A stretch of 38,568 nucleotides of DNA, from positions 1 through 38,568 of IMG/VR virus record IMGVR_UViG_3300020467_000003. The stretch is one strand, 5' to 3'. The stretch comes from a virus. The notes beneath the pieces were generated by a model. That model ran no database searches and was not told the origin of the DNA. It worked only from the letters and a program-made list of their open reading frames with translations. Position 1 is the first letter of the stretch; each line of letters opens with the position of its first letter. Positions 18,454-36,325 of the stretch are shown here, piece after piece. Position numbers and translations under genes: made by a program.

Positions 18454-18716
18454 TGCCTAAAAAAAAATCTGTTTCTTTAAGAAAAGAGCATAAAAGCAAA
18501 ACAGGTGGTCTTACAAAAAAAGGGCGTGAAAAAGTTAATAGAGAAACAGGTAGTAAATTAAAAGCACCAGTTACAGGCAAAGTAAAACGTGGCAGTAAAG
18601 CAGCTAAAAGACGCAAATCTTTTTGTGCCAGAATGAAAGGTGTTAAAGGTGCTACAAGTAAAGGTGGTAAATTGACTAGAAAAGGTTTAGCTCTTAAAAA
18701 ATGGAAGTGTAATTAA
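18453..18716 (+). CDS. Small Lys-rich protein (DUF6321-like)
   Basis: An 87-residue, very basic protein. The N-terminus is Lys/Arg-rich (MPKKKSVSLRKEHKSKTGG) with TKKGREKVNRETG, and the C-terminus has KRRKSFCARMKGVKG followed by LTRKGLALKKWKC. The SFCARM and KWKC pattern is that of the small domain that I know as DUF6321, found in many phages and viruses. Its role is unknown; it may bind nucleic acid in the virion. It overlaps the scaffold stop by one base (TAATG), and its own stop shares the TTAA at 18713-18716 with the stop of the convergent minus-strand gene. Confidence 0.8.
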   Translation: MPKKKSVSLRKEHKSKTGGLTKKGREKVNRETGSKLKAPVTGKVKRGSKAAKRRKSFCARMKGVKGATSKGGKLTRKGLALKKWKCN

Positions 18717-18970
18717 GTCCAATTAATTTCTTTTTTTGCTGCTGTTAATTTATCAGTATCAGTAATCTTAGTTAAAGTAACAGTACTGTTAACTAATAGT
18801 GTTGGGTCAAAACCTGTTTCTGCTACAACAACAGTACCTATCTTTAACCATTTTTTTAATTTACTAGAATCATTTGTGGTTTCACTCATACCAGAACCCC
18901 ATGATTCCTCTTTGCCTGTATAAGCTAAACGGTAAAATTCTGAATAATCAGTTGCTTTAAATTCTGCCAT
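18713..18970 (-). CDS. Small unknown protein at the end of the tail module (85 aa)
   Basis: An 85-residue protein (begins MAEFKATDYSEFYRLAYTG) with a mixed alpha-beta look and a Ser/Thr-rich middle. It follows the large fibre gene by four bases and is the last gene of the leftward virion unit. It could be a tail-fibre accessory or chaperone because of this position, but nothing in its sequence shows that. Its stop codon uses the same TTAA tetranucleotide as the stop of the convergent gene, and no terminator is visible. Confidence 0.7.
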   Translation of the reverse strand: MAEFKATDYSEFYRLAYTGKEESWGSGMSETTNDSSKLKKWLKIGTVVVAETGFDPTLLVNSTVTLTKITDTDKLTAAKKEINWT

Positions 18971-18974
18971 TAGT

Positions 18975-21900
18975 TTAATCTCCTGTGTATTGATTCCAAT
19001 TTGATCTTATCCAACAACCGTAGCTTGAGCTATGGTAATCTCCGATCATATACCAAGAGTTATCTCCTTGTCTAAACCACTCTCCTGATTTAGTAATAAT
19101 AGAACTAGCAGTTTCACTATTACCTGAGTGATGATGTGTAAATCCACCTTCAGCAATCATTTCGGGTGTACCCCACCAAGGCACAAAGTAATTTGTCCAT
19201 GAGTTGTTTTGTGCATAATAAGCGTTGTTACCGTCAGCTTCAAGATATGGAGTAGTCACATAGTTCCAATAACCTGCAACAAATAGCCTTCCTTCATCAT
19301 CTTCTAATACAACTCTGTTTGCATTATCTCCATCTCCACCTCTGGGGTGAATTTTTACAATAGTTCCTATTGCTAACTTTTTATAGTTTGCGTGTGATGA
19401 ATCATCTCTAAATGAATGTATAGTTCCAATTACTTCATTTGGTCTGGAATCATTAGAACCACCTGTATTTAAACTTGGGTCACCAAAATCTCTAAACTGT
19501 ATCTCTGCACCAAACCAATCTGTACTGTTGTTGTTAGCACTTGTAGTTCTACCAGTTCCCTGTTGTCCATAATCGTTGTAACCAGTAGCATATATTTTCT
19601 GGTTATAGCCAGTACTTCCTCCGTCAGTAATAAAGTATAAAGTTGAATATCTACAATTATTACAAGCCATATATATTACTTTTTGATTATTACTATTCCA
19701 CATAGTACTTGAGTTAGTAAGTAGTTCTGGAAGTGTACTATTAGTTGGACTACTTTGATAAACTCCACCACTTGCTCCATGTGCGTGACCTTTATAACCT
19801 GCAAAATAAACTTTACCTTCATCAGTTAATATCCAAACTTTATTTTCGTCATCTCCATCTTGGTTAGCAATAACATGAACTACTGTTTTACCATTAATAG
19901 GCGAACCTGTTACCCCTGTCATTTCTACAGGTGTATTTTGTTGTGTTGTATTACCTAACCCAAGCTGTCCATTGCCATTTCTACCCCAACACCATAACTT
20001 ACCTGACTCTGTTATTGCATAAACAGAAGTATAATAATAACCACTTGAAGCTATGTATATAATTTTTTCATTACCTACTCTACTCATAGGCATTTGTTTT
20101 GCGTAATAGTTATTGCTAGTAGTGTTATCTCCTAGCTGTCCATATCCGTTATAACCCCATGTATATAGCTTTCCGTTTGTATCTAACATTCTAGTAGAGT
20201 AATAACTGACGTTATCGCCAGTAAAGTTTTGAGCATTAGAAAATTCTATAAATTTGATTTTAGGGTGGTTTGCTCCTGTTAATCTTGCTCCTGAGTCATC
20301 AAAAAATACGACACCCATACCTGCTGCGTTTAAATCCCATGTACTACCGTTACCCCATATTCCATAACCTCCATAACCTGCTGCCATAACCATGCCATTT
20401 TCAAATAACTGGTAACCATGCTTACCTGATTTGTGCATTTGCATTAACTTAGGCCATAAGTATTTTAATTTTCCATTTTGGTCATACAAATCAAGAGCAT
20501 TACCATTTAGATCGGTTAACAAATGTGCATAGTCAGAGTGTCCCGCAAGTGCTTCTTCCCAGAATTTAGGTGTTCTATTGACCCCTTCAGCAGGGTAACT
20601 ATGAGTTCCGTTATAAGCACTTACACCATAAACTCCATAGCCACTACCATAAGTGTAGTCATAACTACTTGTATGATAGTGATTACCAAATTCAACATAC
20701 TTTCTTAAACCTAAAGCACCTCCTCTTCTATAACCTGCTGTGCAACAACCATATAAAAATCCTCTACCACTTTTTTTAAGATATGCAGGTAAAGCCCATA
20801 AACTTTCTGTATAGTTATTTATTGTTGCGTTGGGGAAATGACAAAATCCTTTTACTAAATCTTTTGGTACATCATAAGGTTGTTGAACAAGATCTTTTTT
20901 ATAAACAGTAGTACCAGACCAAGAAGGAACAGTTTTTAAATTTTTTAACGTTAAAGATATACTATCTGCTTGGTTTGCTTCATCACGAATAACAACGCTA
21001 GTTAATGTACTTCCCGAAGCGGGTGTATAAGTTATCGTTCCTCCGTTAGTCACAAATTGAGGTGCAGCACTACCGTCTGTTATTCTTCCACCGTTACCTG
21101 CTCCACTATATCCACTAGCAGCAGGGTCTTTAACTGAATAAGTTAAACCGTTAGCAGGGAAAGTAAATGAATATGATTTTCCTTTTGTAATATTGATGTT
21201 TGATGTTAAATTATTGTTTCTATATATTCTTGGTATTTCTGAACCTGCAGCAGCAGTAGTGTATGAAGTGTTTATCACACCATCTGACATACCAGAATGA
21301 ACAGAGCAACCATATCTCAAAATATATAAAGCAGGTGCTTTTGGAGTAAATGTAATTGTTGCTCCCGCTTGACCTGCTGTACCGCTTCTTACAATTCCAA
21401 AATCAGATTCACTATATCCAGTACCATTAACAAAAGCATACGCTGAACTTGTCCAATATTTAAAAGCAAAAACGTGACCTGTATTACTAGCATCACTAAC
21501 ATCAAAAACATATTGTGAGCCAACTTTAATAGTTATTGTAGGTCTTTCAACAGTTCCAGAAAGACTACCACCACTAAGATGAAATTGATTTTGACCGCTT
21601 ACTGCTGCTACTGTAACTGTATAATTAACAGATTCATAAGTTTCTCTTGCATCACCTGTTAACCATGCGTGTCTAGTTCCTCCAACAAGTATCGGATTAT
21701 ATTCATAGTTACCTTCATTTGGTATATCTTCTAAAGGTTTTTCTATAACACTTAGCTGAGAACCTACTTCGCCAATAGGCAACTGTACATTTGATACGTC
21801 ATCATTATCTCTAAATATCATTCCTCCTGACGCTGTTAATACAGATGCACTAGGAGCATTAACTAAGGTAGCAAAATTAGAATCAGTACTAGGGTTACTA

Positions 21901-22211
21901 GAACTAGAACTAATAATATAGTTTAAAACTGTGCCTTTATAAATATAAGTTGCGTTGTTGTATGTAACTAAATCTCCTTTTTTAAACCCTTGACCTTGCG
22001 AATAATTACCTCTGTAATTAAGACCACTAGCCATTTGGCTATAGTTAGTGCCATCTTGTGATGGTGCTATGTTTTGAGAAGTTGACAAATCCGTTAATAC
22101 TACATAACTTGTGCCTTCAAAATAAACAATGTCATCTACTTCATATGCTGTGTTAGCAGCCCAAGTTCCTTTCCATTGAAACTTTAGTTTACCTAAATCA
22201 ATTTGTGCCAT
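18975..22211 (-). CDS. Large tail fibre or adhesin with cupredoxin-like domain and RCC1-like beta-propeller (1078 aa)
   Basis: A 1078-residue virion protein immediately downstream of the T7-type fibre. Residues 11-100 contain two carbohydrate-binding-like beta repeats (WKGTWAANTAYEVDDIVYF and YSQGQGFKKGDLVTYNN). Residues about 195-320 resemble a cupredoxin: His246 in TGHVFAF and Cys302, His305, Met308 in YGCSVHSGM, the ligand set of type 1 copper sites. Residues 605-1057 hold seven RCC1-like units, starting near 605, 680, 737, 799, 871, 974 and 1043; the best are GKLYTWGYNGYGQLG and GKLWCWGRNGNGQLG. Seven units make a complete propeller. It probably forms the receptor-binding part of the tail; host-range variation would be expected here. 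Confidence 0.85.
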   Translation of the reverse strand: MAQIDLGKLKFQWKGTWAANTAYEVDDIVYFEGTSYVVLTDLSTSQNIAPSQDGTNYSQMASGLNYRGNYSQGQGFKKGDLVTYNNATYIYKGTVLNYIISSSSSNPSTDSNFATLVNAPSASVLTASGGMIFRDNDDVSNVQLPIGEVGSQLSVIEKPLEDIPNEGNYEYNPILVGGTRHAWLTGDARETYESVNYTVTVAAVSGQNQFHLSGGSLSGTVERPTITIKVGSQYVFDVSDASNTGHVFAFKYWTSSAYAFVNGTGYSESDFGIVRSGTAGQAGATITFTPKAPALYILRYGCSVHSGMSDGVINTSYTTAAAGSEIPRIYRNNNLTSNINITKGKSYSFTFPANGLTYSVKDPAASGYSGAGNGGRITDGSAAPQFVTNGGTITYTPASGSTLTSVVIRDEANQADSISLTLKNLKTVPSWSGTTVYKKDLVQQPYDVPKDLVKGFCHFPNATINNYTESLWALPAYLKKSGRGFLYGCCTAGYRRGGALGLRKYVEFGNHYHTSSYDYTYGSGYGVYGVSAYNGTHSYPAEGVNRTPKFWEEALAGHSDYAHLLTDLNGNALDLYDQNGKLKYLWPKLMQMHKSGKHGYQLFENGMVMAAGYGGYGIWGNGSTWDLNAAGMGVVFFDDSGARLTGANHPKIKFIEFSNAQNFTGDNVSYYSTRMLDTNGKLYTWGYNGYGQLGDNTTSNNYYAKQMPMSRVGNEKIIYIASSGYYYTSVYAITESGKLWCWGRNGNGQLGLGNTTQQNTPVEMTGVTGSPINGKTVVHVIANQDGDDENKVWILTDEGKVYFAGYKGHAHGASGGVYQSSPTNSTLPELLTNSSTMWNSNNQKVIYMACNNCRYSTLYFITDGGSTGYNQKIYATGYNDYGQQGTGRTTSANNNSTDWFGAEIQFRDFGDPSLNTGGSNDSRPNEVIGTIHSFRDDSSHANYKKLAIGTIVKIHPRGGDGDNANRVVLEDDEGRLFVAGYWNYVTTPYLEADGNNAYYAQNNSWTNYFVPWWGTPEMIAEGGFTHHHSGNSETASSIITKSGEWFRQGDNSWYMIGDYHSSSYGCWIRSNWNQYTGD

Positions 22212-22213
22212 AA

Positions 22214-23173
22214 TTAAAGATCAATAATTAGATGTCCATTAGAGTTCAATGTAATCTTTGGAGCATTGGGAGCATTGGAGTCAAGAATGTCATCACCTAA
22301 AAAATAGGCTAAAGTCTCTCCTTTTGCAACAAAATCAGAAGTCTTGTAGACAACTGAATTTGCGTCACTAGCTAAATTATATATCATTCGCAACATACCG
22401 CTAGTTAATCTTTTAAATCCTACAAATACCGTAGCTCTAGTTAGGTTCTGTGCTGTAGACGCTGCATTAGTTGCAGTAACAGCAGATGCAGCAGCTTGTG
22501 TTGCACTCGCAGCAGCTTGTGTCGCTGATGAAGCAGCAGCAGCAGCACTACTACTCGCTTGTCCAATAGCTGTATTTGCGTTTGCTATACCTGCATCTAA
22601 CTGTCCTTTGTTAACAGCATCAGTTGCAGCAGAACCATCACCAAGATTAGAAATTTTATTTGAATTTGCATTTAATGTACCTGCCATATTGACAGAACCA
22701 TCAGCTTTTATAAATGCCTGTGTATCTATAAAATTCTTTGTTACTGCGTCTTGTGCATCAACTGGGTCTGCAACATTTTTTAAAATTTTATTATTAGCAC
22801 TTAAATTTGTACCTAATGGGACAACTCCTGACGCTGTATCATCTGCGTTTTCTTGTAAAGCAAATAATATCTGTTCTGTATTAGTATCAAGATCTGATTC
22901 TGTTAAAACACTACCGTCTTGGAAATCAACTTTTTTTGCACTTATATCTGTATTTCTTTGTAATCTTATAGCAGCACCATTAACAGGTATTTCAGAACTA
23001 ATAAATTCTATAGTTTGTCCAGAAACAGTAAAATGTGTCCCTAATGTTTTAGTAACTCCATCTACAGTTACATTAACTTCTTCATCAGATAAAAAAGCAA
23101 ATGATATTGCAAAAGTATCTGATGTACCATTACCTTGATGTGTTACAAATGAGGGCGTATTATTAGTTGCCAT
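22214..23173 (-). CDS. T7-type tail fibre adaptor (gp17 N-terminal domain, 319 aa)
   Basis: A 319-residue protein whose first 130 residues match the T7 gp17 N-terminal tail-attachment domain: FVTHQGNGTSDTFAISF, FLSDEEVNVTVDGV, IRLQRNTDISAKKVDFQDGS and LTESDLDTNTEQILFALQE. A region of VTKNFID and KISNLGDG collagen-like/fibre-shaft repeats follows, then an Ala/Ser/Thr-rich coiled coil (AAASSATQAAASATQAAAS) and a short C-terminal domain. T7 gp17 has 553 residues with the receptor tip on the same chain; here the chain stops short. The 1078-aa protein directly downstream, two bases away, probably supplies the receptor-binding tip. Confidence 0.9.
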   Translation of the reverse strand: MATNNTPSFVTHQGNGTSDTFAISFAFLSDEEVNVTVDGVTKTLGTHFTVSGQTIEFISSEIPVNGAAIRLQRNTDISAKKVDFQDGSVLTESDLDTNTEQILFALQENADDTASGVVPLGTNLSANNKILKNVADPVDAQDAVTKNFIDTQAFIKADGSVNMAGTLNANSNKISNLGDGSAATDAVNKGQLDAGIANANTAIGQASSSAAAAASSATQAAASATQAAASAVTATNAASTAQNLTRATVFVGFKRLTSGMLRMIYNLASDANSVVYKTSDFVAKGETLAYFLGDDILDSNAPNAPKITLNSNGHLIIDL

Positions 23174-23175
23174 TT

Positions 23176-26100
23176 TTATCTACCACCATAGACGTTTTTA
23201 AATGTTTCATTTTCTTTAATAGTTTCCCTATATTGTAACTCTAATTTCATTTTATCTTTAATTACATTTTGTACAAATGGCTCATCTTGATGATCTATAA
23301 AGAATTTTTCTTTACCTGCACGTTTATAAAATCTAATAATATCATCTAAACCTAAAGTATGCCCTACTGTTGGGTCACCTTCTACTACAAAATTTCTTAG
23401 TTTTTCAAATTTTCCTTCATTTTTTATAACCTTATTATTACGTCTATATTTTTCTATTTCTTCCATATGAGCAATAATATGTGGTTGATCAAAATATGCA
23501 GATATTGCTTCTCTTATATTCATATCTCCAAACCTTTGATAGCCTTCTGTACCTTTTGGAAACGTAAAATTATTAATGTATCTTACTAATTTATTATATT
23601 TAGGACTAGTTAAACCAACATCAACACTTTCTATTCCATCAACAGGATTTAATAAGTCTACATTTTGTTTTAAGTTTGGATTTGGTGGTTCGGGTAAATA
23701 ATTTAAAATTTTAAAATTAGTAATTAATGGATTATTTCTACTTGTAGATTGATTGACCCAATTTAATAACCATAATCCCTCACTTTGTTTATACTTTTTA
23801 ACTTTTTCATCAGTAATAAATTCATACTCAAATGGATATTTTGCTTCGTTATCGTCATTAACTCCATCACCTGCACCAAATATATGTTCATCTAATAATA
23901 TTTTAAAGTTTCTTAACCACCCTAATTTATCAAATCTAGTACTTAACATTTTTTTGTTTCTTAAATTTTGATATTCACTCTCAGTCATAACTCCTGAGTT
24001 TCTAAGACCTAAACCAACATCATGTTTTAAATCTTTTAAAATTCTTGGTGCTATTGATGTAAGAATATTTCTTTGCAACCATGTTTTATTTTTTGCGGGG
24101 TCTTCAATAAATTTAAAGAAATCTTGTATGCCAAACATATTACCTTTATTTAAAATTGATCTTACGGTGTAATATGACAAACTAGTAACAAATTCACCAA
24201 ATGTTTGTTCTGGTAATTGATCTGCTACTTTAAATAAATTCATAGCATTTATTAATACTTGTGATATAGGGTCTAACTTTTGTATCGAATAATAGTCATA
24301 TACTGGTTTGTTATCTTCACCTATTACTGGTTGTCCATCTTTTTGACGCAAAATACCAATTGATTCTGGTAATTCACCACTCATTTTTTGTAATTTTACT
24401 TTAGTTTTTTCCCAATCACCGCCAAAATAATTATCTGATGTTCCTTGAAAAATTACTTTTGGTGGATTATCAGGGTCATTTTTTTTGTACATATTTAGTA
24501 CAGTTGCAAATGCAGGTAACAAAATAATATTGCCTAACATCAATTGACCTCTAGCCTGTCTTGCAACCATAGGGTCTAAACTTTTTAGATCTTGCCAAAG
24601 TTCTGGCATTAAAAAGTTAACTATAGGTGTTCTTCTCCAACCACGTTTCATTAAATTAACAGGTGATCGTAAGAAAAACATAAAACGTTTTGCTATTGGT
24701 GATGTTGACGTTATACGATTTGCACCATCAGCAACTTGTCCAAAAATAAATCCTTTATTAAATATTGGCTCAGTAAACGTTTGTCTTTTTGCAAACTCTA
24801 ATGATTGTTGCAATGCTTCTGCAAAATCATCATCTATAATTCCATTTTTTAATGCTTTTCTAGATTTACTAAGTAACAACTCTTGCATAGCTTTTAAATA
24901 ACCTTGTACATGATCAGTTAACTCTTGACCTGTTTTGCCTAATTTCATACCAGATCTAAATCCATGAAACGTCATAGACCCATTTAATGCACCTGCTTGA
25001 AACAAAGCGTCCATAGTAGTCATAACTTTACTACCACCTCTAAATGCTTGAGTTGGAAAATTAAAGCCTTCATCTAACAATGGCAACCTATCTGAAAAAG
25101 GTACTTTCATTTGACCATCAAGAAATGCTGCTGTTGCTTCTCCTAATGGTGTATTACGAAATTCAAAAGCAGGGATAGAAACTTTCTTACCGCCAAGATT
25201 ATATGTTTGTCCAGTAAACGGAAGTTGACCTTCAATCAATTGACTAGAAAAAGCTCTTTCACTTACGTTTTCTAATTTTGTATTTCTTGGGTTAATAATA
25301 TTAACATCAGTCAACCATGATTTTTTAGCAACTTCATTTATAAATTCTAAGTCAGTAAACATACCAGTAAATGCTTTTAAATTTTCTTGGTACATTCTTG
25401 TATCGCCTTTAAATGCTTTAAGCATTGCATAAGGGTCTAACATCATTTCAACACCAAAAAATAGTGACTCAAGACTATTAGAAACAAAGTTAACTGTTAA
25501 TGTTGTTGGGTGAAACAATAATAAGTTAATACTTAAATCAGTTAATGGGTGTAATATTTTATCGTTTAAAATTGCAGTTAATAAATTTTGTTCAAACAAC
25601 TTTTGTAGCTTTTGTGGGTCACCGTTTGCTCTATTTAAGACTCCAAATAAATTATCTAACTTTGTATAATCACCATCTTTCATAGCTTCTGCGTGTGCTT
25701 CATATATTTTTTCTTGAAAATCACTAAATCTTTTACTGTAATTTTTTGAGTTATAAATAACTTCTTCTTTTAACTTTGCCCTAAATTTAAATTTTTCTGA
25801 TTCTGGTAATTTAGCCCAATCTTCTGGATTAATACCCATAGTAGGTATTTGCATAGCTTTTAAACCTTGACCTGTTTTACTTCCAATAGGTACTGCGAGT
25901 TCTATCCATTCATCTATTTCTTTCATGTTATTCAGCACTTTTCCTATATTTGCATCAACAAAACTATAATCTTCATTTCTTATTGCCATTTTTAATCTTT
26001 TAGATAAGTCTGTATTTTTGTTAGCTAATAAAGTGATTTGTTCTGCTAACGCATAATTCATTTCATCTAAAGGTTCTAAGTTTAATATTTCTGCTAACGC

Positions 26101-28818
26101 TTGTCCTCTAGCTTTTAATTCATCAGTATCAGCTAACATTGCAATTGCATTTTCAATAGTAGATCTTACAGATTTAGATTTGCCTAATGTACCATCTCTT
26201 TTTAGAGATTTTATTCTATTTATGATGTAGCTATATTTATTAAATTGTTTTCTTGTATGTGGTAAGTTAAAGAAATTTTCTTCATCATCAAACATACTGT
26301 TAGGATTATTGGTTTGACCTCCACCGCCATCTCCTCCTCGACCATCTCCACTCTTTGCTCCTATACCACTCCTATTTGGTCTATTACCATTTTTTTTCAT
26401 TGTAATAAAATCAACCTTATTCATGTCAGTAGTATGTCTATATTCCAAAGGAATCTCACTTTTCTTAAATTGAAATCTACCGCTATTAAAATCATTAAAA
26501 ATTTTAGTTGCCTGATCTCCTCCAAACTTAGCTTTTATACTTGCCAACATACGTCTGAAATATTCTTGCATTTCTTGACCTAATCTTTTCCATGAACCTA
26601 TTGGAGCATTAGGTAATCTTCCATCAAACTGCAAAAACTCATCAGTCATAGTTTCTGCAAAGTATTCATCTATATTTTTGTATCTATATGTTTCTTCTGT
26701 AAATTTTGTATTTTCAAACCAACTTTCCTTTATTTTTTTAAATGAAGGTAAATCGTCCCATTCAATGCTTTTGCCTACTCTGTCATATTCTCTATCCATT
26801 CTTCTGCCGAAACTTTCCATTTGCTCAACAGTTATTAATTGTTTAAAATCTTCCCATTTTGTTTTTTCTATAAAATCTTTTTTATTAGCATCAAAATCTA
26901 TAAGATATTGTTTTCTTTTTTTTGCAAATTCGGTTCTTAGTTTATTTAAATCTTCTGTAGGTAAATATCTAGATAATGTATGCCAAATTTCATGTATATA
27001 TGTTCTACTAAAATCACCTTCTCGTAATGTTTTTGCATTGATAGATATTAATTTTTTATTAAAATCAAAATTACCTGCTGCTCCTATTTTACTGTTAATA
27101 CTAAAAGAAACATCTCTAAGCCTTACATCACCTATGCTATCAATAAACAGATTTAAAAGATCAGCATCACCATCTGATAACTGTTGAAATTTAATTGCAG
27201 GTAATACAACTTTATTACCTTCTCTACCTGTAATTGTCATCTCAGGCATAAATGTATTTTTAAAATTTAAAAACTTAAGCCTTTGTTTTAAATAATCTTT
27301 ACCTCTACTACCATATAATCCTTGACCTGACTCCACTTTTGTTTGGTAAGGTACTGATTTTTCTTCTACGTTTTTGATATTTAATAAAGTATTTAAATTA
27401 TCTTCAGTTAAATTACCGTTTACGTTTAATTCACCAATAGCTCTGTTTATATAACTTATATCAGCTAAATCATCATCAGATAGACTTTCTATAATAATAT
27501 CGTTTCTTTTAAATAATTCATCTAATTTTGAATCTAGACTTAATTCATTCCATTTAATTTCATCTAAATAATTAAAATCAATGTTTGGTGTAAATCCTCT
27601 TGTTTCTGCTAATTTATTTGTTATCGCAGTAACAAGATCAGGATTTTGTTTTATTGCTTTGAATTTATCCAGTACGCCATCTATTAAAAATCTACCTAAA
27701 TCAATAATTTCTCCACCTGCTGATTTAAATCCAATTTTGCCTGACCTGTTTAAACCTCTTACTGCTGAGTAACCAAACTGTATAGGCAATGCTTCTGATA
27801 AAGCAAATTTTAATTTAGCTTCTATAAACCCTTCTTCTTTGGGATTTGTAGCAGTTAACCATCTGTATAAACCTGTATCTAATTCTGGTATTGCTTTTAC
27901 TAATGGGTCAAAAGCATGAAAGAAATTTTCTGTTTCAGCATCAAGAAACAAAAAACCTGCTGTAAAATCTTCTAAACCACCTAAAGCTCTATTAAAGAAA
28001 AAGTTTTGTACATTTTTAGCATTTAATCCTTTTGTCAAAGAATAGTTAACAGGTCTATAACTAAATTTTCCTAAACCAGTTACAGGATTAACACCACCTG
28101 TTAACTTATTTCCAATTCCTCTTGTAGCATTACCACCGACTATAAACCTAGTTATAATACTGGTAGTATTAAATATATTTTTATTACCATCTTCGGGGTC
28201 TATATTAGTTAATTTTCTTGTAATATCATCTATATCAAATAATTCAAATTCTTGATAAGGTTTACCTGCTAGTTGCGTAAATATATTAACGCCAGTTTCA
28301 GAAAATTCATTAAGTGCCATTGGATAGGCAGCAAAAAATCCTCTTATAATTTGCCCTACAGCATTGTCTGCATTGTTTCTACTAAAGTCTATAGATTGGT
28401 TGTAATATTTTATTGCTTTTTGCTTTCTATTTTCTAACAGCTTATTCCATTTAGGTTTTAAATTTTCTGGAAGAATATTTCCTATTTTGTTATAAACGTG
28501 TTTATTAAAAAACTGGTCATCAAAACCTTCTGCATAATCTTTTTTTTTCTTTGCGTAAAAATCGTTGTCCTCTGTATTATCAAAACTCAATATACTTTCA
28601 TTACCTTTTTCAAAACTAAATAATCCATTTGGATTAAAATCTAAATTTAATTCTTCACTTATAGATGAAATATTTTTTTTATCAGTATTATATATATTAC
28701 TCAAGTCAAGAGTTTCTATATTAGGTTCTATGTCATTACTTATAAGATCATTATGCTCTGTATTAAAAGGTATCTTATTAATACCATCATCTACAAATTC
28801 TTCTGTTGGTTTACCCAT
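23176..28818 (-). CDS. Giant internal virion protein with zinc metallopeptidase motif (T7 gp16 counterpart, 1880 aa)
   Basis: The largest gene, 1880 residues against 1318 in T7 gp16, in the gp16 position between the gp15-like gene and the fibre. A zincin motif HEIWH lies at about residues 609-613 (YIHEIWHTLSRY), followed by an EYFAETMTDEF segment that may give the third ligand. A Gly/Asp-rich linker (GDGRGGDGGGGQ) near residue 830 separates it from a long helical C-terminal half with RSPVNLMKRGWRR and other membrane-proximal-looking helices. T7 gp16 is ejected into the cell and helps carry DNA across the envelope; its N-terminal transglycosylase was not seen here. The start overlaps the stop of the upstream gene by one base. 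Confidence 0.88.
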   Translation of the reverse strand: MGKPTEEFVDDGINKIPFNTEHNDLISNDIEPNIETLDLSNIYNTDKKNISSISEELNLDFNPNGLFSFEKGNESILSFDNTEDNDFYAKKKKDYAEGFDDQFFNKHVYNKIGNILPENLKPKWNKLLENRKQKAIKYYNQSIDFSRNNADNAVGQIIRGFFAAYPMALNEFSETGVNIFTQLAGKPYQEFELFDIDDITRKLTNIDPEDGNKNIFNTTSIITRFIVGGNATRGIGNKLTGGVNPVTGLGKFSYRPVNYSLTKGLNAKNVQNFFFNRALGGLEDFTAGFLFLDAETENFFHAFDPLVKAIPELDTGLYRWLTATNPKEEGFIEAKLKFALSEALPIQFGYSAVRGLNRSGKIGFKSAGGEIIDLGRFLIDGVLDKFKAIKQNPDLVTAITNKLAETRGFTPNIDFNYLDEIKWNELSLDSKLDELFKRNDIIIESLSDDDLADISYINRAIGELNVNGNLTEDNLNTLLNIKNVEEKSVPYQTKVESGQGLYGSRGKDYLKQRLKFLNFKNTFMPEMTITGREGNKVVLPAIKFQQLSDGDADLLNLFIDSIGDVRLRDVSFSINSKIGAAGNFDFNKKLISINAKTLREGDFSRTYIHEIWHTLSRYLPTEDLNKLRTEFAKKRKQYLIDFDANKKDFIEKTKWEDFKQLITVEQMESFGRRMDREYDRVGKSIEWDDLPSFKKIKESWFENTKFTEETYRYKNIDEYFAETMTDEFLQFDGRLPNAPIGSWKRLGQEMQEYFRRMLASIKAKFGGDQATKIFNDFNSGRFQFKKSEIPLEYRHTTDMNKVDFITMKKNGNRPNRSGIGAKSGDGRGGDGGGGQTNNPNSMFDDEENFFNLPHTRKQFNKYSYIINRIKSLKRDGTLGKSKSVRSTIENAIAMLADTDELKARGQALAEILNLEPLDEMNYALAEQITLLANKNTDLSKRLKMAIRNEDYSFVDANIGKVLNNMKEIDEWIELAVPIGSKTGQGLKAMQIPTMGINPEDWAKLPESEKFKFRAKLKEEVIYNSKNYSKRFSDFQEKIYEAHAEAMKDGDYTKLDNLFGVLNRANGDPQKLQKLFEQNLLTAILNDKILHPLTDLSINLLLFHPTTLTVNFVSNSLESLFFGVEMMLDPYAMLKAFKGDTRMYQENLKAFTGMFTDLEFINEVAKKSWLTDVNIINPRNTKLENVSERAFSSQLIEGQLPFTGQTYNLGGKKVSIPAFEFRNTPLGEATAAFLDGQMKVPFSDRLPLLDEGFNFPTQAFRGGSKVMTTMDALFQAGALNGSMTFHGFRSGMKLGKTGQELTDHVQGYLKAMQELLLSKSRKALKNGIIDDDFAEALQQSLEFAKRQTFTEPIFNKGFIFGQVADGANRITSTSPIAKRFMFFLRSPVNLMKRGWRRTPIVNFLMPELWQDLKSLDPMVARQARGQLMLGNIILLPAFATVLNMYKKNDPDNPPKVIFQGTSDNYFGGDWEKTKVKLQKMSGELPESIGILRQKDGQPVIGEDNKPVYDYYSIQKLDPISQVLINAMNLFKVADQLPEQTFGEFVTSLSYYTVRSILNKGNMFGIQDFFKFIEDPAKNKTWLQRNILTSIAPRILKDLKHDVGLGLRNSGVMTESEYQNLRNKKMLSTRFDKLGWLRNFKILLDEHIFGAGDGVNDDNEAKYPFEYEFITDEKVKKYKQSEGLWLLNWVNQSTSRNNPLITNFKILNYLPEPPNPNLKQNVDLLNPVDGIESVDVGLTSPKYNKLVRYINNFTFPKGTEGYQRFGDMNIREAISAYFDQPHIIAHMEEIEKYRRNNKVIKNEGKFEKLRNFVVEGDPTVGHTLGLDDIIRFYKRAGKEKFFIDHQDEPFVQNVIKDKMKLELQYRETIKENETFKNVYGGR

Positions 28819-31778
28819 TACTTACCTGAGATAGATTTACGAGCTATTTTAAGTGTATCTCTCAATACGTCTAAGTCTATATTAGCTTTATTTCCTCTTC
28901 CATCATCATCATAAAAACCTTTACCGTTTGCCATAGGTGCTGCTGCAAACTCCATTGCAATATCTTCTAATGCAGCATCTATGTCATCTGATTTACCTAA
29001 AATATAATTTTTTACGTTTGGTCTAATACTATTCATAATTCTCGCCCAGAACATTCTATCTTGTGCATCAATACTGAATTTAGTATTAGTTCCCAAACCT
29101 GCTGCTTTCATAGTTTCTTTAAATGTAGCAGCTTTAAATTGATAAGCACCAACTGCATAATATTTACCACTTTCTAAATCTTCTAATATTTCTCCGAGTG
29201 TTGCAGTTGTTAATCCTTCTATTGTTTCAGAATTACCTGTGTTGCCATGATTTACTACTTCATAATTATTGCTAGACTCACCATCTCTAATAACTCTTGC
29301 CAAATTACCAAAATCAGGGAATTTAGTTAGTTCTTGTGACTTGAAATCCATAACTTGATGCACTAAATTTTTTGGTATTTTAATTAGTTGATCTTTATAA
29401 ATTAATTTTGCATCTTTTATATCAGGATTAATTTCTAAAATATCCTCTACAGATACGTCATATCTTTCTGCTATAACAGATAAATTATCATTTTCTTGTA
29501 CTCTATAATCTATAGGTTGTACATCAAATGTATTTTCATTTAATAAACCATTTAATTCAGTAGACGCAATTTGTATTGGTTTTTCAAATAAGAAACTTGT
29601 TTTCTTGTCTAGATTTTCATTAGTTTTTTTATCTTTTTCATTAATCAATTCATCTAGTTTACTGTCATTTTTAATAACACCACCATTATTATCGTTGTCA
29701 TTATTTTTTTGATTAAGCTTTTTATTTAACTGTTTTTGTTCATTACTATCTTCTCTAAATGAAGACATATTATCAGACTTTTGGTTAAGATCTCTATCAT
29801 TAAAATATTGCTGATAGAATTTATCAGGAATTTTAAATTGTTTAAATAATTCTGGTGGTGGATTAATTGGTGTAAAGTCACCTTTTTGGAACTTATTATA
29901 TAAGTCTGCATTTTTAAATCTGTTAAGAGTAACTGTATAACTTGACCCATCTCTTGCAAATAAATCAAAGGTTATATTTTCTGGGTTAATAGCTTGTACA
30001 AGTGCTTTGTCTATAAATGGTACAATTACATCTTCATAGTATTCAGATATTTCAGCTTCAGTTGGTGGCTTCTCTAGTGATCTTCTCCATTCATTAAGTT
30101 TATTTCCCGCTTCTCTTATTACTTTTTGTCCAATAATATTTGCTTGTTTTCCATCTAATTCAAATGGATTTGTAGATCTATCATTATTATAGTAATCATT
30201 TAACGATACAATTGCACCTGTATCTGTCTCTGTAAGTTTTAAAATATTAAATATCTTAGTCTTAATTTGATTGCTGTAATATTTATATCCACCAATAAGT
30301 TGATTATCAGGAATAGCTCTTACATCTTTTGTAATGCTTGTTACAAGTTGTCTTTCTAATTTTGTAAGCCTACCATAACCGCCTAATTTACTTACTATTG
30401 CTAAGAAATCTGTACCTGCTCTTTCTGGGTCATCATCATAATCACCTTGATTTACAGATAATTGAAATTCTAATAATGTTTGTTTTCTATCGCCATTGTA
30501 TAAATCTACATACTCATCAATAAGATCTTTATACTCAGGTGAAATTTTATATAAAGCATCAAATACTTCTTGACCTTTCTCTGTCATAAAATAAATTTTA
30601 CCGTCTGGGCTAACTTCTAATGCTTTGTTTATTACAGCATTAACCTCTCTTCTTGCTTTATCTTCAGCGTCCTTACTTGCATCTTCTTTTTGTCTATCAT
30701 ATTCTTTTGATATTTTTACTTTTAAATTAAATTTTTTCATTGCAAAATCTTTATGTTGCAACAAAGTATTATTTCCATTACCATATTTTATTTTTTCAGC
30801 CCAATCTAAAAAAGCAAATGCTTCTTCTTTACCAAATTGACTGTTTATTTGTAGAGCTACACTTTCAACATTATTAAGTAAATTTTCATAATATTTCTTT
30901 GATTTATCAGACGTTAGACCCATCTGAAAATCTAAAGTAATTTTGCTATTAATTAAGTTATAACTTTTTTCTATTGCAGCAAGAGCTTCTTCATCTGACC
31001 CGAATGTGTCCCATCTTGGCGTAGAAAGATCACTATCTTTTGAAGCAACAAAACTTTGCAACAAAAAACTATTATTCATACTTGTTAAATTATTAAATTT
31101 AAAGTCTTTATTTTTTGTTATATGATCATTTTCAACTTTTAAAAATGCTTTTTCTTTTGCTTCCAAATATTTTAAATGATCTTTTGGGTCTAAACCTTCT
31201 ACTTCATAATCACCTATAGCATTAACTTTCTGTGTAAATTCTCTATATGCTTCTGAATTTTTATCAAACTCAAATAACGGTCTATCTTCATATACTGGTT
31301 CTTGATTTTCATTTAAAATAGGTAAACCATCTTTTGTAAAAAGTTGTTTTTTACCTGTTGAAGTTGCATATAAAGTTTGTATTTCTCTTTCAATTCTATT
31401 ACTTAACAAACCTGCTCTTGCTTCATTAAAAGCATCTTCAGCAAAAATACTACCTCCAATAAAACGGTTAGTAACACCATCTTCTTCATTTTTTCTTAAT
31501 TCATCTACAACACCTTTAAATCCACCTTCTTTTCTATTTTCTCTTACAGCTAATTCAAATCCTTTTTTCTTTTCTTCTTTTACAGCATCTTTTATTTGAT
31601 TACTAAAGATAGCATTTAAAGCAGGGTTTATTGCAACTAATGCTTCTGTCATTACATCTAATGCACCTCTTTTTTGCTCTACTACACTTGTTGGTTTTAC
31701 AAACGTTTCTTTATAGCCCTTTCCTTGAGGAGTAAACTCTTTGCCTTTGTACAGTCTGTTATTAGAAGGTGTTACCAT
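28818..31778 (-). CDS. Internal virion protein with LysM and lysozyme-like domains (T7 gp15 counterpart, 986 aa)
   Basis: A 986-residue protein (T7 gp15: 747) in the gp15 position. Residues 1-700 are helical and charged like the gp15 tube subunit, starting with a Lys-rich YKGKEFTPQGKGYKETF segment. A polar Asn-rich linker (KNNDNDNNGG) follows. Residues about 755-805 form a LysM domain (VQENDNLSVIAERYDVS with INPDIKDAKLIYKDQLIKIP), which binds peptidoglycan. Residues about 820-980 resemble a lysozyme or transglycosylase: VIRDGESSNNYEV with a candidate catalytic Glu, and AVGAYQFKAATFKE. The wall-degrading activity of the ejected virion thus seems to be here rather than in the gp16 counterpart. 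Confidence 0.85.
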   Translation of the reverse strand: MVTPSNNRLYKGKEFTPQGKGYKETFVKPTSVVEQKRGALDVMTEALVAINPALNAIFSNQIKDAVKEEKKKGFELAVRENRKEGGFKGVVDELRKNEEDGVTNRFIGGSIFAEDAFNEARAGLLSNRIEREIQTLYATSTGKKQLFTKDGLPILNENQEPVYEDRPLFEFDKNSEAYREFTQKVNAIGDYEVEGLDPKDHLKYLEAKEKAFLKVENDHITKNKDFKFNNLTSMNNSFLLQSFVASKDSDLSTPRWDTFGSDEEALAAIEKSYNLINSKITLDFQMGLTSDKSKKYYENLLNNVESVALQINSQFGKEEAFAFLDWAEKIKYGNGNNTLLQHKDFAMKKFNLKVKISKEYDRQKEDASKDAEDKARREVNAVINKALEVSPDGKIYFMTEKGQEVFDALYKISPEYKDLIDEYVDLYNGDRKQTLLEFQLSVNQGDYDDDPERAGTDFLAIVSKLGGYGRLTKLERQLVTSITKDVRAIPDNQLIGGYKYYSNQIKTKIFNILKLTETDTGAIVSLNDYYNNDRSTNPFELDGKQANIIGQKVIREAGNKLNEWRRSLEKPPTEAEISEYYEDVIVPFIDKALVQAINPENITFDLFARDGSSYTVTLNRFKNADLYNKFQKGDFTPINPPPELFKQFKIPDKFYQQYFNDRDLNQKSDNMSSFREDSNEQKQLNKKLNQKNNDNDNNGGVIKNDSKLDELINEKDKKTNENLDKKTSFLFEKPIQIASTELNGLLNENTFDVQPIDYRVQENDNLSVIAERYDVSVEDILEINPDIKDAKLIYKDQLIKIPKNLVHQVMDFKSQELTKFPDFGNLARVIRDGESSNNYEVVNHGNTGNSETIEGLTTATLGEILEDLESGKYYAVGAYQFKAATFKETMKAAGLGTNTKFSIDAQDRMFWARIMNSIRPNVKNYILGKSDDIDAALEDIAMEFAAAPMANGKGFYDDDGRGNKANIDLDVLRDTLKIARKSISGK

Positions 31779-31779
31779 T

Positions 31780-32478
31780 TTAAGCTGCCACTAATGTTGT
31801 GTAAGTACCTGCACTTTGACCTACAGATTTTAAGATTGACCCAAACAATGAAGGTGCATTATTTACAGAGTTTGTAGCCCTAGTAATTTGATCTTTAGCC
31901 AAATTATACCTATTATCTCTTGTTGCTCTAGCTCCATCTATATCTCTTTGTGTTTGTGCTATTAAACCGTCCCTTTCTTGTTCAATACCTTCTACTAGAT
32001 TAGCAGTTTGATTATCTATGTCTTGTAGCAATAAAGCAATAGTATTACCTGATCTTTCTGATGCTCTTAAAGCACCTTCTAACTGCAAACCTTGTATTTT
32101 TGTTGTCATAATTTTCTGTTTCTTGCTTGCATCTTTTTCTTTTTGCAATGCTAATATTGCTCTTTCTTGATCAGCTTTTGCTTTTTCAGCATTTTCTATC
32201 ATTTGTAATGAACTTCTATAAACACCTCTAGCTTGATCAAATATTAATTTTCTTTGTTGCAAAGTTGAAAATAAATTAGTTCCTAAATTTAAAGCTGCGG
32301 AAAATAAAAATGGTTTAGCTGCTGCACCAAGACCTAAAAAACTACTTGCGGTAACTGCCGAAGTCGTTGCTGCGGTGGCTGCGGTGGCTGCTGCGGTGGC
32401 TGCTGCTGTACCTGCTGTCGCTGCTGTGGCTGTTGCACCTGTTACTGCGGGAGCAGCTAAACCAAGACCCAAACACAT
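31780..32478 (-). CDS. Internal virion protein B (T7 gp14-like, 232 aa)
   Basis: A 232-residue protein (T7 gp14: 196). The N-terminus is a hydrophobic stretch of Ala, Thr and Gly, the middle contains FLFSAALNLGTNLFSTLQQ, and the rest is a long charged helix (ENAEKAKADQERAILALQ) with FDQARGVYRSSLQMI. In T7, gp14 is ejected first and sits in the outer membrane, and the alternating small hydrophobic N-terminus is consistent with that. It sits between the gp13-like and gp15-like genes. The Ala/Thr stretch is encoded by a short GC-rich repeat that stands out in this AT-rich genome. Confidence 0.85.
   Translation of the reverse strand: MCLGLGLAAPAVTGATATAATAGTAAATAAATAATAATTSAVTASSFLGLGAAAKPFLFSAALNLGTNLFSTLQQRKLIFDQARGVYRSSLQMIENAEKAKADQERAILALQKEKDASKKQKIMTTKIQGLQLEGALRASERSGNTIALLLQDIDNQTANLVEGIEQERDGLIAQTQRDIDGARATRDNRYNLAKDQITRATNSVNNAPSLFGSILKSVGQSAGTYTTLVAA
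32368..32408. repeat. GC-rich imperfect tandem repeat in the gp14-like gene
   Basis: GCTGCGGTG and GGCTGC units repeat several times here and, less regularly, to about 32440. They encode the Ala/Thr-rich N-terminus of the gp14-like protein on the minus strand. The segment is much richer in G+C than its surroundings and could change length by slippage. Confidence 0.7.
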
Positions 32479-32930
32479 TAAACTATCCTCATAAATTCAT
32501 AAAATGGTTTTTTATGTAAACCATATTCTTTATGTAAATTTATAAAGCTAAAATCCATAGAACGCAACCATTTAATAGATACTTCATTTTCAGCATATAC
32601 ATAATTATAAAGGTAATCATACTTTTGTAAAAGAGTAGTGACCCACTCCTTACCTTTTCTTATAAGTTGTATTTTATATTTTTTATTATTAAACAATTCA
32701 TCAGTTGCTACAAACCATATACACCCATTAGGCATAACACCGCATAAACCCATAGGTTGATCTTCATCACCTGCTGCTGTCATGGTTACTTGGCTATTTA
32801 CATATGTAAGTGCTAGTGCATCTTCTGGTTCACAACCACATTGATAATATGCTTCTATTTTATCCATAGTACGCATATTCTTCATAACATGACGTAGATC
32901 TTTGCTATTAGATTTTCTTAAATATCCCAT
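32478..32930 (-). CDS. Internal virion protein A (T7 gp13-like, DUF2833, GNAT-fold)
   Basis: A 150-residue protein (T7 gp13: 138) recognised by GLCGVMPNGCIWFVATDEL and LYNYVYAENEVSIKWLRSMDFSFI, which match the DUF2833 family of podovirus core proteins. These look like small acetyltransferases without a clear catalytic role. In T7, gp13 is needed for assembly of the internal core. It sits directly after tail tubular protein B, with one-base overlaps on both sides (TAATG-type junctions). Confidence 0.88.
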   Translation of the reverse strand: MGYLRKSNSKDLRHVMKNMRTMDKIEAYYQCGCEPEDALALTYVNSQVTMTAAGDEDQPMGLCGVMPNGCIWFVATDELFNNKKYKIQLIRKGKEWVTTLLQKYDYLYNYVYAENEVSIKWLRSMDFSFINLHKEYGLHKKPFYEFMRIV

Positions 32931-35398
32931 TATAATCTCCTACTTCTCATATAAAATAATCCTTCAAATTCTGCACTTGAAAGTTGCGTTGGTAAAAACG
33001 TATTATTTTTTACATCAATTGCTACAGTATCGGCTCTTGTCATTATTGGAAATCTAAAAGTACCAGTTGCTAAATTTATTTGACCAATAGAAGTAGAAGC
33101 TGCACCTAATAATCTGCCAGTAAATTTATGAATACTTGTATCTCTACTTTCTGGTGTGACTTCTACTTGAAAAAAACCTGTGTCCTCATATTTAATATAC
33201 CAATGATGTATTTGTAAACGACCACTAATTACTTCTCCTTGTTGATCACCACCTGCTGCTTGTAAAATTCTTTGTCGACTAAACCTATATAACATTTCAT
33301 ATGGTTCACCAATAATAAATTTAGAGTTTCTATAATCACCTTTTACAGCAATAGTATTTACTGTACCGTTTGTAAGATTAGTAGATTGTATAACTTGCCC
33401 TGCTTTTAATGTTTGCGTATTACCTTGCGGGTCAATGTATGTACTAGTTTCTGATGATGATAAATATCTACCGACTATATCCATTTTTCCTCTAAGTTGA
33501 TATGGCAAACTGAAAGTAGATGTATTAGTTACAGCGTTAAAACTTACTGCAACTCCTGTACTTGATTCTGTAACTTTATGATCTAAATGATATTCAAATT
33601 CTGAATATGGTTCTTTGTAATCAGCAGCAAAAGGCATTTTTTCTAAAGTTGTACCTGTATCTTGTTCTATAACCATGTATAAATCATTATTAATAAAGTC
33701 AATATTTTTAATTTTTCTTGCTTCGTTGATAGTAAAAGTTGACCAAGAATTTAATATTTTATTTCCTCTTTCACCTTCTAACCATCTATTCACATATAAG
33801 GTATTAGGTTTATCAGTTCCTAATAATATAAGGACATCTTCATTAGTTGATACTGCAAATTTAAATATATTTTTTTCTATAAGTCTAGGAACGTGAATAG
33901 TTATATTAGCTGCATCTTTTACTTGTACATCTCCCTGTGTAATATATTCTCTAACACCTGCAAAATCACCTTTGTCAGTTAAATAATAAATAGAACTACC
34001 AGAACCAACAGGTGCAGCTTTAGCACTACTTTCAAATTCAGTTGCAACAATAACGTTAGCAGTTTGTGGAGTTAAAGTATCGGAAGAACTAGCTAATACA
34101 AATTGCGTTTGATCAGAAAACAAAATTAATTGCTCACCCATAGATACAGCATTTTTAAGTATCGCAACTTTTGTATGTGACGCTGCAACGTCTATTGGGT
34201 CAGAATCAATAACAGTAATAACTGTCTCTGGAAAAAAATTAAAAAACTCAGAAACTCTAGATAGTATGACATTATCATCAGCTAGAAACCCTAACCTGTT
34301 TCTAAAGAAAAATACATTATTTATAGGAGCATCAATAAAAGAAGGATTAGGTGCTGACTCCTCATCTCCAACAGTTCTTTCACCCCATTTCGGTAATGTA
34401 TATGACTGTGTATTACTACCAACAGTAACGCTATAAGAATCACCATCTACTCTTGCAAATCTAAAATTACCATCTGCCTGACGTATTAAAACGTGTGGCA
34501 TAGTATCATAATTAAATTTAAATTTTATTCCATCTTTAACTGTTTCTTCCCATTGTCCCTCTTCTAATGCACCACCATTATTAGTAACAAACTTAACGTA
34601 ATAATTATCAAAGTTAGTTGATTCATCACCTTTAATTTCAACAACATAACCATTAGGAGAAACAGTAGGTAGATCTGTAAACCTTTGTACAGAGTCTTTG
34701 ACTATAGTTAATGTTGTATTTCCCTGTGTGTCACCACCATCTATAGAAAAATTAGAACCATCAGTTTTTTTAATATGCAATACAGCACCGTTTTGTGCAA
34801 TAGTAAAACCTGATAAATTTGAATTTAAAGAGTTTTTTATAGAGGTTGCAACTGTAGTAGTGCTTAACGGATTATCACTAGAGGTATCGTGAGTAACACT
34901 AGTTCCATCAACAGTAACGGTGTAAGTTGTATTATCTAAGACCTGATTTACAAATACAATTGCTTGAGTGTCACTACCTGCTGATAGTGCATTATCCATT
35001 TGTGTAACTATGCTTGTATTAACAACAAACGTGAAGTCAGCAATAGTTACAGTTTTGATTTGATCTCTTGGATTAGTTGTTGCCAAATAATTAACGCCAT
35101 CAGGTTTATGTACAGTAAGTTCTGTGCCATCAAGTTCAAAGACTTTGACATCACCATTACTAAAAATAGCTATATATCTTTCTGATAAATCTCTATTAAT
35201 AGTTTGTATATGAACATTACCTATTGTGCTATTGCTTATTGTTGCTAAATACTGAGTACCTGATCTTTTTGTTAAACCTTGTACTGGACTACTATTAGCA
35301 TTATTTTGTAAATCAGCGTGGTCAGCTTGCTTTGTTGCGTCAGCAGCTTGCGATATACCTCTAAGTAAAGTAGGTATTGATCTTGATATAACGCCCAT
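32930..35398 (-). CDS. Tail tubular protein B (T7 gp12-like nozzle)
   Basis: An 822-residue protein (T7 gp12: 794), starting with the typical ISRSIPTLLRGISQAADATKQADHADLQNNANSSP pattern (here residues 4-38) and QGLTKRSGTQYLA. The middle contains NNVFFFRNRLGFLADDNVILSRV and FEFSSAKAAPVGSGSSIYYL-like segments, and the C-terminus LSSAEFEGLFYMRSRRL, all found in gp12 homologues. Six copies form the tail nozzle that carries the fibres. It overlaps the tail tubular protein A stop by one base. Confidence 0.95.
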   Translation of the reverse strand: MGVISRSIPTLLRGISQAADATKQADHADLQNNANSSPVQGLTKRSGTQYLATISNSTIGNVHIQTINRDLSERYIAIFSNGDVKVFELDGTELTVHKPDGVNYLATTNPRDQIKTVTIADFTFVVNTSIVTQMDNALSAGSDTQAIVFVNQVLDNTTYTVTVDGTSVTHDTSSDNPLSTTTVATSIKNSLNSNLSGFTIAQNGAVLHIKKTDGSNFSIDGGDTQGNTTLTIVKDSVQRFTDLPTVSPNGYVVEIKGDESTNFDNYYVKFVTNNGGALEEGQWEETVKDGIKFKFNYDTMPHVLIRQADGNFRFARVDGDSYSVTVGSNTQSYTLPKWGERTVGDEESAPNPSFIDAPINNVFFFRNRLGFLADDNVILSRVSEFFNFFPETVITVIDSDPIDVAASHTKVAILKNAVSMGEQLILFSDQTQFVLASSSDTLTPQTANVIVATEFESSAKAAPVGSGSSIYYLTDKGDFAGVREYITQGDVQVKDAANITIHVPRLIEKNIFKFAVSTNEDVLILLGTDKPNTLYVNRWLEGERGNKILNSWSTFTINEARKIKNIDFINNDLYMVIEQDTGTTLEKMPFAADYKEPYSEFEYHLDHKVTESSTGVAVSFNAVTNTSTFSLPYQLRGKMDIVGRYLSSSETSTYIDPQGNTQTLKAGQVIQSTNLTNGTVNTIAVKGDYRNSKFIIGEPYEMLYRFSRQRILQAAGGDQQGEVISGRLQIHHWYIKYEDTGFFQVEVTPESRDTSIHKFTGRLLGAASTSIGQINLATGTFRFPIMTRADTVAIDVKNNTFLPTQLSSAEFEGLFYMRSRRL

Positions 35399-36012
35399 TA
35401 ATCTCTAATAAGTGCAGATGAAGGTGTATATGTATTAAATCTACCTGTTATAGAAGGGTCACCAATCAACATATTTGTATCGTTATTATTACTATCACTA
35501 TCTAATAAAATTGCTCTAGCTCTTACTTCGTCTTGTTGTGTATAAGTTCTTAAACTATCATCAGTTACAGAACGATCTACAAATACTCTAGCTGCTCTTA
35601 TATTTATGTATCTTCTAGCGGGTTCTGGCAACTCTTCAAACTTTAAAAAATATAAAACTTCGCATTTTAAATCTTCTTCAAAAATATCTGTATGTTTAAA
35701 CCTGTCATATAGTTTTAAACCTCTTTGTACTGCATCAATTTGTGGGTGATCTTGTATATTTACATCAACTTTTAAAACGTTTGCAGGTAAATTAATTTTA
35801 TTATTTGCACTTCTAGTTAATACAACATTATATTCAGTATTAAATGACCAACCTTCACCTTGTACTGATTTACTTTGTTCATTTAACAAGTTTTGTGCAA
35901 TTTTAACGTCAACAGGTAACGTGCCAGTAAGTTTATTTACTGGTGCTTCACCTATAGCAGCTAACATAATGTTAATTGCTTCTAATTCTGTTGTTGCTGC
36001 GGTAATACTCAT
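35398..36012 (-). CDS. Tail tubular protein A (T7 gp11-like gatekeeper)
   Basis: A 204-residue protein (T7 gp11: 196) with the conserved pattern ELEAINIMLAAIGEAPVNKL at the N-terminus, then LLNEQSKSVQGEGWSFNTE, KLYDRFKHTDIF, and YINIRAARVFVDR. Twelve copies form the gatekeeper ring between portal and nozzle. It overlaps the preceding Lys-rich miniprotein by four bases (ATGA) and the next gene by one, so the whole tail series is translationally coupled. Confidence 0.95.
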   Translation of the reverse strand: MSITAATTELEAINIMLAAIGEAPVNKLTGTLPVDVKIAQNLLNEQSKSVQGEGWSFNTEYNVVLTRSANNKINLPANVLKVDVNIQDHPQIDAVQRGLKLYDRFKHTDIFEEDLKCEVLYFLKFEELPEPARRYINIRAARVFVDRSVTDDSLRTYTQQDEVRARAILLDSDSNNNDTNMLIGDPSITGRFNTYTPSSALIRD

Positions 36013-36164
36013 TTTTTCTTAGCAGTTTTAGCTGCATCTCTAAAATTTTTTGCAGTAGGTCTACCTTTTTGACCTTTTTTTCTCATTTTTTCTTTACTAC
36101 CGCCTTTAATACGCTTTCTTTTTGCGTGAATGTTAGCGTATAATCCTAGTTTTTTTCTAGCCAT
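36009..36164 (-). CDS. Small Lys-rich conserved phage protein (51 aa)
   Basis: A 51-codon ORF (begins MARKKLGLYANIHAKRKRI, with GSKEKMRKKGQKGRPTAKNF). LYANIHAKRKRI and EKMRKKG are conserved in many podo- and myophages in small proteins near the structural genes, so I am confident that it is real. It is extremely basic, suggesting nucleic-acid binding in or near the head. It couples to tail tubular protein A by an ATGA overlap. Its function is not known. Confidence 0.85.
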   Translation of the reverse strand: MARKKLGLYANIHAKRKRIKGGSKEKMRKKGQKGRPTAKNFRDAAKTAKKK

Positions 36165-36166
36165 AG

Positions 36167-36274
36167 CTACATTTTTTTAGATTTTTTAGTAGTTTTTTTC
36201 TTTTTTACAGCAGCTTTAGATTTTTTTGGTCTGCCAACCTTTGAACCATAACTGCCCTTACCATAGGGAGACAT
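36167..36274 (-). CDS. Very small Lys-rich protein (35 aa)
   Basis: A 35-codon ORF (begins MSPYGKGSYGSKVGRPKK) ending in a run of Lys, Ser and Thr. The PYGKGSYGSKVGRP start recurs in small proteins of phage head modules. Its ATG directly abuts the T-tract of the capsid-gene terminator, with no Shine-Dalgarno sequence in between. It lies two bases upstream of the 51-aa gene. Whether it is translated at a useful level is uncertain for that reason. Confidence 0.65.
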   Translation of the reverse strand: MSPYGKGSYGSKVGRPKKSKAAVKKKKTTKKSKKM

Positions 36275-36304: not shown

Positions 36305-36325
36305 CATTTTATAGATTTAGGTAGA

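Follow-up and report, generated by a model that had tools for sequence, protein, structure and literature searches.

The region considered here lies in a viral record of 38,568 bases, the whole of which is called the window below. It encodes a terminase, an integrase, a T7-type RNA polymerase, a primase/helicase, a 5'-3' exonuclease and a portal, together with a T7-type nozzle and tube and internal virion proteins; the terminase, the portal and the scaffold were identified by similarity and position with respect to Prochlorococcus phage P-SCSP2. This phage, which grows on Prochlorococcus MED4, is the closest isolate (its nozzle is 72.7% identical), so that the host is likely a picocyanobacterium. 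P-SCSP2 is an MPP-C cyanopodovirus, and the MPP-C members are devoid of a DNA polymerase gene (PMC9860041). Besides the nozzle (73%), the two viruses have in common the presence of an integrase and, likewise, the window proteins that were examined did not include a DNA polymerase. On the other hand, the gp17-type protein of P-SCSP2 is 1103 amino acids long, its tail block is not inverted and its cupredoxin is carried by a separate protein of 437 amino acids; in the phage collection, this is the only close isolate, and its cupredoxin is thus on a different protein. As for the other tail genes of the isolate, P-SCSP2 g31 (L001 25387-28698), which has been guessed to be an internal virion protein (PMC9860041), carries a T7 tail-fibre N-terminal domain (PF03906, 5.7e-18) and, because of this domain, its sequence makes it more likely a tail fibre.

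In the window, a block that begins with the fibre cassette and extends as far as the major capsid protein (18711-37500) is inverted if compared to P-SCSP2 and related contigs, in which portal, capsid and fibre are co-directional. The portal is 53-58% identical to that of relatives whose capsid protein is 84-87% identical, and a search of the two block ends for long inverted repeats gave none; the block may be a real inversion, a recombinant or an assembly chimera. An earlier note on this DNA, made from its letters, did not mention the inversion. Elsewhere in the window, the gene at 3737-4720 encodes ArdC N-terminal and zincin-like metallopeptidase domains and is a candidate anti-restriction protein, and that at 28818-31778, in the position of an internal virion protein, has a LysM domain at 758-802 and a C-terminal part matching PHROG 30077.

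The fibre gene (P0001), its segments and its two neighbours are located as follows:

18713..18970, minus strand: 85-aa protein, third gene of the cassette, conserved 3' of the fibre
18975..22211, minus strand: P0001, the whole fibre ORF, 1078 aa, with full-length relatives 41-88% identical
18978..20447, minus strand: residues 589-1078, seven RCC1-type units, predicted closed propeller (Pfam, AlphaFold2, Foldseek, motifs)
20448..20915, minus strand: residues 433-588, conserved segment ahead of the propeller (pLDDT mostly very low)
20916..21236, minus strand: residues 326-432, probable second cupredoxin fold without ligands (HMM, hhalign, Foldseek)
21258..21641, minus strand: residues 191-318, cupredoxin-type domain with the full type 1 copper ligand set (AlphaFold2, Foldseek, ligand conservation)
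21288..21308, minus strand: C302-S-V-H305-S-G-M308, predicted ligand loop (codon check, conservation)
21474..21476, minus strand: codon of His246, predicted ligand (codon check; 119/119 pattern-selected domains)
21642..21851, minus strand: residues 121-190, conserved shaft segment, which varies with the adaptor C-terminus
21852..22211, minus strand: residues 1-120, N-terminus MAQIDLGKLKF and two CBM5/12-like modules (Pfam, Foldseek, variability)
22214..23173, minus strand: short adaptor, 319 aa, T7 gp17 N-terminal domain and YadA-type stalk (PF03906 7.5e-28, PF05662 3.4e-7)

The minus strand of 18975-22211 translates into an uninterrupted protein of 1078 amino acids, and the plus strand contains many stops. 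The order of the cassette is gp17-type adaptor, P0001 fibre and 85-aa protein, an arrangement that is missing from the earlier note. The adaptor was found upstream of the fibre in 36 out of 36 loci with cupredoxin and propeller (viral contigs with enough flanking sequence), and the 85-aa protein, with no match in Pfam or PHROG, lies downstream of it in nearly all the complete loci of this type. Moreover, the N-terminus of P0001 is common to annotated tail fibre genes. The location in the tail block, the gp17-type adaptor as neighbour and the fibre N-terminus are those of a podovirus distal fibre and, together with the distinct domains described below, they make the view of P0001 as a modular adhesin, already put forward in the earlier note, a well supported one. 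In P-SCSP1u, trimers of gp17-type fibre N-termini dock on adaptor and nozzle (PMC10575957), from which a trimeric gp17-type adaptor carrying a distal P0001 would follow as the natural model.

The cupredoxin-type domain had been noticed for His246, Cys302, His305 and Met308, the last three in the C-x2-H-x2-M arrangement that amicyanin also uses. The codons were checked on the minus strand (C302, 21306-21308; H305, 21297-21299; M308, 21288-21290) and the spacing of the loop, C302-SV-H305-SG-M308, is the one seen in amicyanin 1aac (CTPHPFM) and in nitrite-reductase domains of 6hbe and 9cck (CSIHPYM, CTLHPWM), so that the observation holds as it was made. The order His, Cys, His, Met is kept, with Cys, His and Met on one loop. 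None of the four residues varies among the nine closest sequences or, in a wider set of 25 relatives (N-terminal half 36-88% identical), wherever the domain is present and sequenced. In an alignment of 14 remote phage domains, from cyanomyoviruses, pelagiphage Baldr, Methylophilales phage Melnitz and P-SCSP2 g33, four of the nine invariant columns are the H/C/H/M ligands; one of the remote domains has one extra residue ahead of the Met. To these we can add a scan of IMG/VR by the C-x2-H-S-G-M-G-G end alone, a pattern that leaves the upstream His outside and that returned at least 120 domains: the His was found in 119 of the 119 aligned domains among the matches listed. Given this co-conservation of the distant His, we rejected a chance occurrence of C-x2-H-x2-M. 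Residues 190-320 of P0001 contain one further His (H211), which is absent from the conserved columns of the remote-domain alignment, and no further Cys or Met. The domain is strongly predicted to bind copper at H246, C302, H305 and M308.

The fold was modelled by AlphaFold2 on residues 1-450 with 55 sequences, covering the cupredoxin region for which the earlier note had proposed a structure prediction. The cupredoxin-type domain was mostly at pLDDT 80-96; H246 lies ahead of the strand 248-253, C302 closes the strand 297-302, and H305 and M308 are in the loop that follows. This placement of ligands relative to strands is the cupredoxin arrangement. A Greek-key cupredoxin fold is thus predicted for residues 190-310, and most of the Foldseek matches in the PDB are copper nitrite reductases and laccases, with alignments spanning about 300-390 columns and probabilities mostly of 0.85-0.99; the TM-scores of these matches are low (about 0.15), which we attribute to several domains being freely oriented in the model. 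By sequence, the comparison with known cupredoxins stays below significance. In fact, Pfam and NCBIfam gave no cupredoxin or copper-protein match for P0001, no curated family above its cut-off being hit, and Copper-bind was matched by one remote member of the family (0.025). A profile-profile comparison with three blue copper proteins gave a probability of 25%, versus 0.1% for the reversed control, a match that is suggestive only. A profile search of the PDB gave weak matches, the best real cupredoxins having E 0.1; a SUMO match in the same search was judged spurious. Taken with the invariant ligands, the predicted fold and the Foldseek matches bear out a cupredoxin-type domain with a complete type 1 ligand set.

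The Foldseek alignments of 300-390 columns are to two-domain cupredoxins and, in P0001, residues 326-432 are probably a degenerate repeat of the same fold, to which the earlier note made no reference. A cupredoxin HMM detects the counterpart of this segment in eight relatives at E about 1e-3 and left it undetected in P0001 itself; hhalign of residues 326-432 against the cupredoxin profile gave 68%. The homology is marginal. All four ligands are absent from this copy. If the homology is right, a second copy that holds the fold without the ligands would indicate that those of the first copy are kept for metal binding.

The C-terminal part was described in the earlier note as seven RCC1-like units, and this count is right. 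Pfam PF00415 matched at 6e-16 (59 bits, versus a cut-off of 21.7), and PF25390 at 1e-28, under its own gathering cut-off; the best solved relative by sequence is UVR8 (2e-27). From motif spacing and strand pattern, the units start at about residues 589, 652, 717, 777, 845, 951 and 1019. The prediction proposed for this region was run on residues 430-1078 and is of modest confidence (mean pLDDT 58.6, pTM 0.73); the Foldseek matches listed for the model are RCC1 propellers, with UVR8 as the best one (E 6e-16, TM 0.60 on the target). Motifs, strands and Foldseek all point to a seven-repeat ring, the closure of which is itself predicted. P0001 resembles the propellers of UVR8, HERC2, RPGR and RCC1 in repeat signature, predicted fold and number of units, but differs from them in its identity of about 16%, in a long insertion in unit 5 and in its phage fibre context; no exchange-factor or photoreceptor role is implied for it.

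At the opposite end of the protein, also left out of the earlier note, Pfam CBM_5_12 (PF02839) matched at 0.0029 with 18.0 bits, below its cut-off of 26.2, and Foldseek aligned Vibrio chitin deacetylases with the model along about 104 columns (probability 1.00). These matches are consistent with two N-terminal CBM5/12-like modules in the model, the assignment to residues being our own; since the profile is under the cut-off, though the fold match is good, we use only the label CBM5/12-like. The pair is hypervariable from residue 39. Among seven close relatives it shows 48% identity and a pN/pS of 0.77, residues 121-190 show 89% identity, and the propeller 87% with a pN/pS of 0.30. Support for the propeller as receptor-binding tip is therefore weak: in close relatives it is one of the most conserved parts and the most variable module is the CBM5/12-like pair, which makes the propeller less plausible as a fast-evolving, specificity-determining tip. 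The adaptor C-terminus and residues 121-190 of the fibre co-vary (Spearman 0.77, uncorrected for shared ancestry), which hints, at the level of sequence, at a contact between them.

To follow the combination of modules, a scan for the N-terminus IDLGKLKF was added to the earlier loci, giving 92 unique fibres. Cupredoxin and propeller occur together in 48 of them, the propeller alone in 16 and the cupredoxin alone in 11; three have a cupredoxin with collagen-like repeats, and the other 14, mostly truncated, have neither. The ligand pattern is present in every complete first cupredoxin among these fibres, and the sole exception is at a contig end. In the propeller tree the cupredoxin-bearing fibres form one side of a single branch; one change therefore suffices, and frequent gain or loss of the cupredoxin among RCC1 fibres was rejected. 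Two fibres (L181 and L220) have a shaft like that of L185, 48% identical to P0001, and a propeller grouping with those of L197, L160, L165 and L166. As read from these sequences (L181 and L220 versus L185 and L197), shaft and propeller recombine inside the fibre gene.

Cyanophage structural proteins do include some with cupredoxin domains, as the earlier note stated, and the same was found for proteins of pelagiphage, Methylophilales phages and SAR86. The marine phage tail domains of PHROGs 30742, 677 and 693 are homologous to that of P0001 and have identical ligands; examples are those of cyanophage S-TIM5, Synechococcus phage S-H9-2, pelagiphage Baldr, Methylophilales phage Melnitz and P-SCSP2 g33, which have other architectures, and none was seen with an RCC1 propeller in the same protein. 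Among phage records the domain is found in marine phages only (of Synechococcus, Prochlorococcus, Pelagibacter, Methylophilales and unassigned marine viruses). A strict DNA pattern, with more matches in viral contigs than the listing shows, gave only nine in prokaryote genomes (257 billion bases), all in marine-type single-cell or metagenome assemblies; at least one is a phage fibre with a T7-type N-terminus (L327), and several are SAR86 or gammaproteobacterial proteins ending in, or containing, a cupredoxin domain. Four SAR86/gammaproteobacterial proteins (L322, L324, L328, L330), up to about 1,700 amino acids long, have the same cupredoxin domain with C-x2-H-x2-M. It is possible that such proteins, at the cell surface, have given the module to phages or received it from them. 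In comparison with amicyanin (1aac) and the nitrite reductases 6hbe and 9cck, the likeness lies in ligand types, loop spacing and predicted fold; these, however, are an electron carrier and enzymes, while the P0001 domain is part of a phage fibre with a predicted site, its sequence match to them is non-significant, and Val or Pro, not Asn, follows the first His. No curated family in Pfam or NCBIfam covers the phage domain, and our searches of the open-access literature gave no earlier description of such cupredoxins in phages. The component folds, and fibres with borrowed modules, are already known; the novelty lies in recognising that the tails of marine phages contain a widespread and so far unnamed family of cupredoxins with all copper ligands in place, and that in one uncultured marine lineage this domain is joined to an RCC1 propeller.

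With a probability of roughly 0.6, we propose that P0001 is a distal fibre made of a CBM5/12-like pair, a cupredoxin tandem with one metal site and an RCC1 propeller. The short gp17-type adaptor would dock on the tail of a T7-like marine phage related to P-SCSP2, and the conserved N-terminus of P0001 would join the adaptor and bear two fast-evolving modules of the sugar-binding CBM5/12-like type. The shaft would be the cupredoxin tandem, the first domain retaining its type 1 copper site and the second having lost it, and the C-terminal end a closed seven-bladed RCC1-type propeller. At H246/C302/H305/M308 the first cupredoxin would bind a single copper ion or, failing that, some metal, presumably selected since it locks or tunes a fibre module needing a stable shape in seawater, and the host surface would be contacted by the CBM-like pair together with the propeller. 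The model is built on sequence features, predicted folds, the conservation of the ligands and the gene context, which the analysis shows; metal binding, trimer assembly and the module that touches the host are the parts of it that we infer; we expect the copper-type site to hold a metal stabilising the fibre module.

The state of the site can be looked at differently. The four residues could be kept for fold or packing, the domain being copper-free in the virion, either apo or with incidental zinc. There is very little free copper in the cytoplasm, in which phage proteins are synthesised, and the Pfam search, without a copper-protein match for P0001, goes in the same direction; but all of H-C-H-M persists across deeply diverged domains whose neighbouring positions have changed, and the probable second copy retains the fold without the ligands, so that we regard a copper-free domain as rather unlikely. 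It is quite improbable that the domain acts during adsorption as a metal lure for the host copper-uptake machinery or as a redox part in electron exchange at the surface: its restriction to phages of marine hosts living at scarce metal, and its occurrence in SAR86 proteins too, would suit such a role, but the position of the domain within the protein differs between phages and no partner is known.

As to which module touches the host, it is almost as plausible as not that the CBM5/12-like pair makes the specific contact, the propeller being a conserved platform or binding a conserved receptor. The difference in variability between the two modules in close relatives (48% and pN/pS 0.77 versus 87% and 0.30) and the CBM-like fold match speak for it; the pair, however, is near the probable tail-proximal end, it may be hypervariable because it has to match an adaptor that itself varies (Spearman 0.64 with adaptor residues 151-250), and the family shows recombination between shaft and propeller. 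That P0001 is instead intracellular and acts on host chromatin or nucleotides is hardly credible. PHROGs 4219, 7220 and 16766 are indeed labelled 'regulator of chromosome condensation', but this label stems from the name of the fold and the gene is in the tail block, directly behind the gp17-type adaptor, and has a fibre N-terminus; we rejected the annotation as an artefact of the fold name.

The choice of the infected cell is made by tail fibres, and phages of Synechococcus, Prochlorococcus, Pelagibacter and Methylophilales strictly keep the ligand set of P0001 in their fibre and baseplate proteins. If the distal fibre with one metal site is the correct reading of P0001, metals would take part in oceanic phage adsorption or virion stability. 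We tentatively extend this to the idea, which we hold to be possible but doubtful, that the virions of many marine phages may be copper metalloprotein complexes with copper-loaded fibre domains, up to 18 per particle in the present virus if there are six trimers, and that their adsorption or stability would depend on the copper of seawater.
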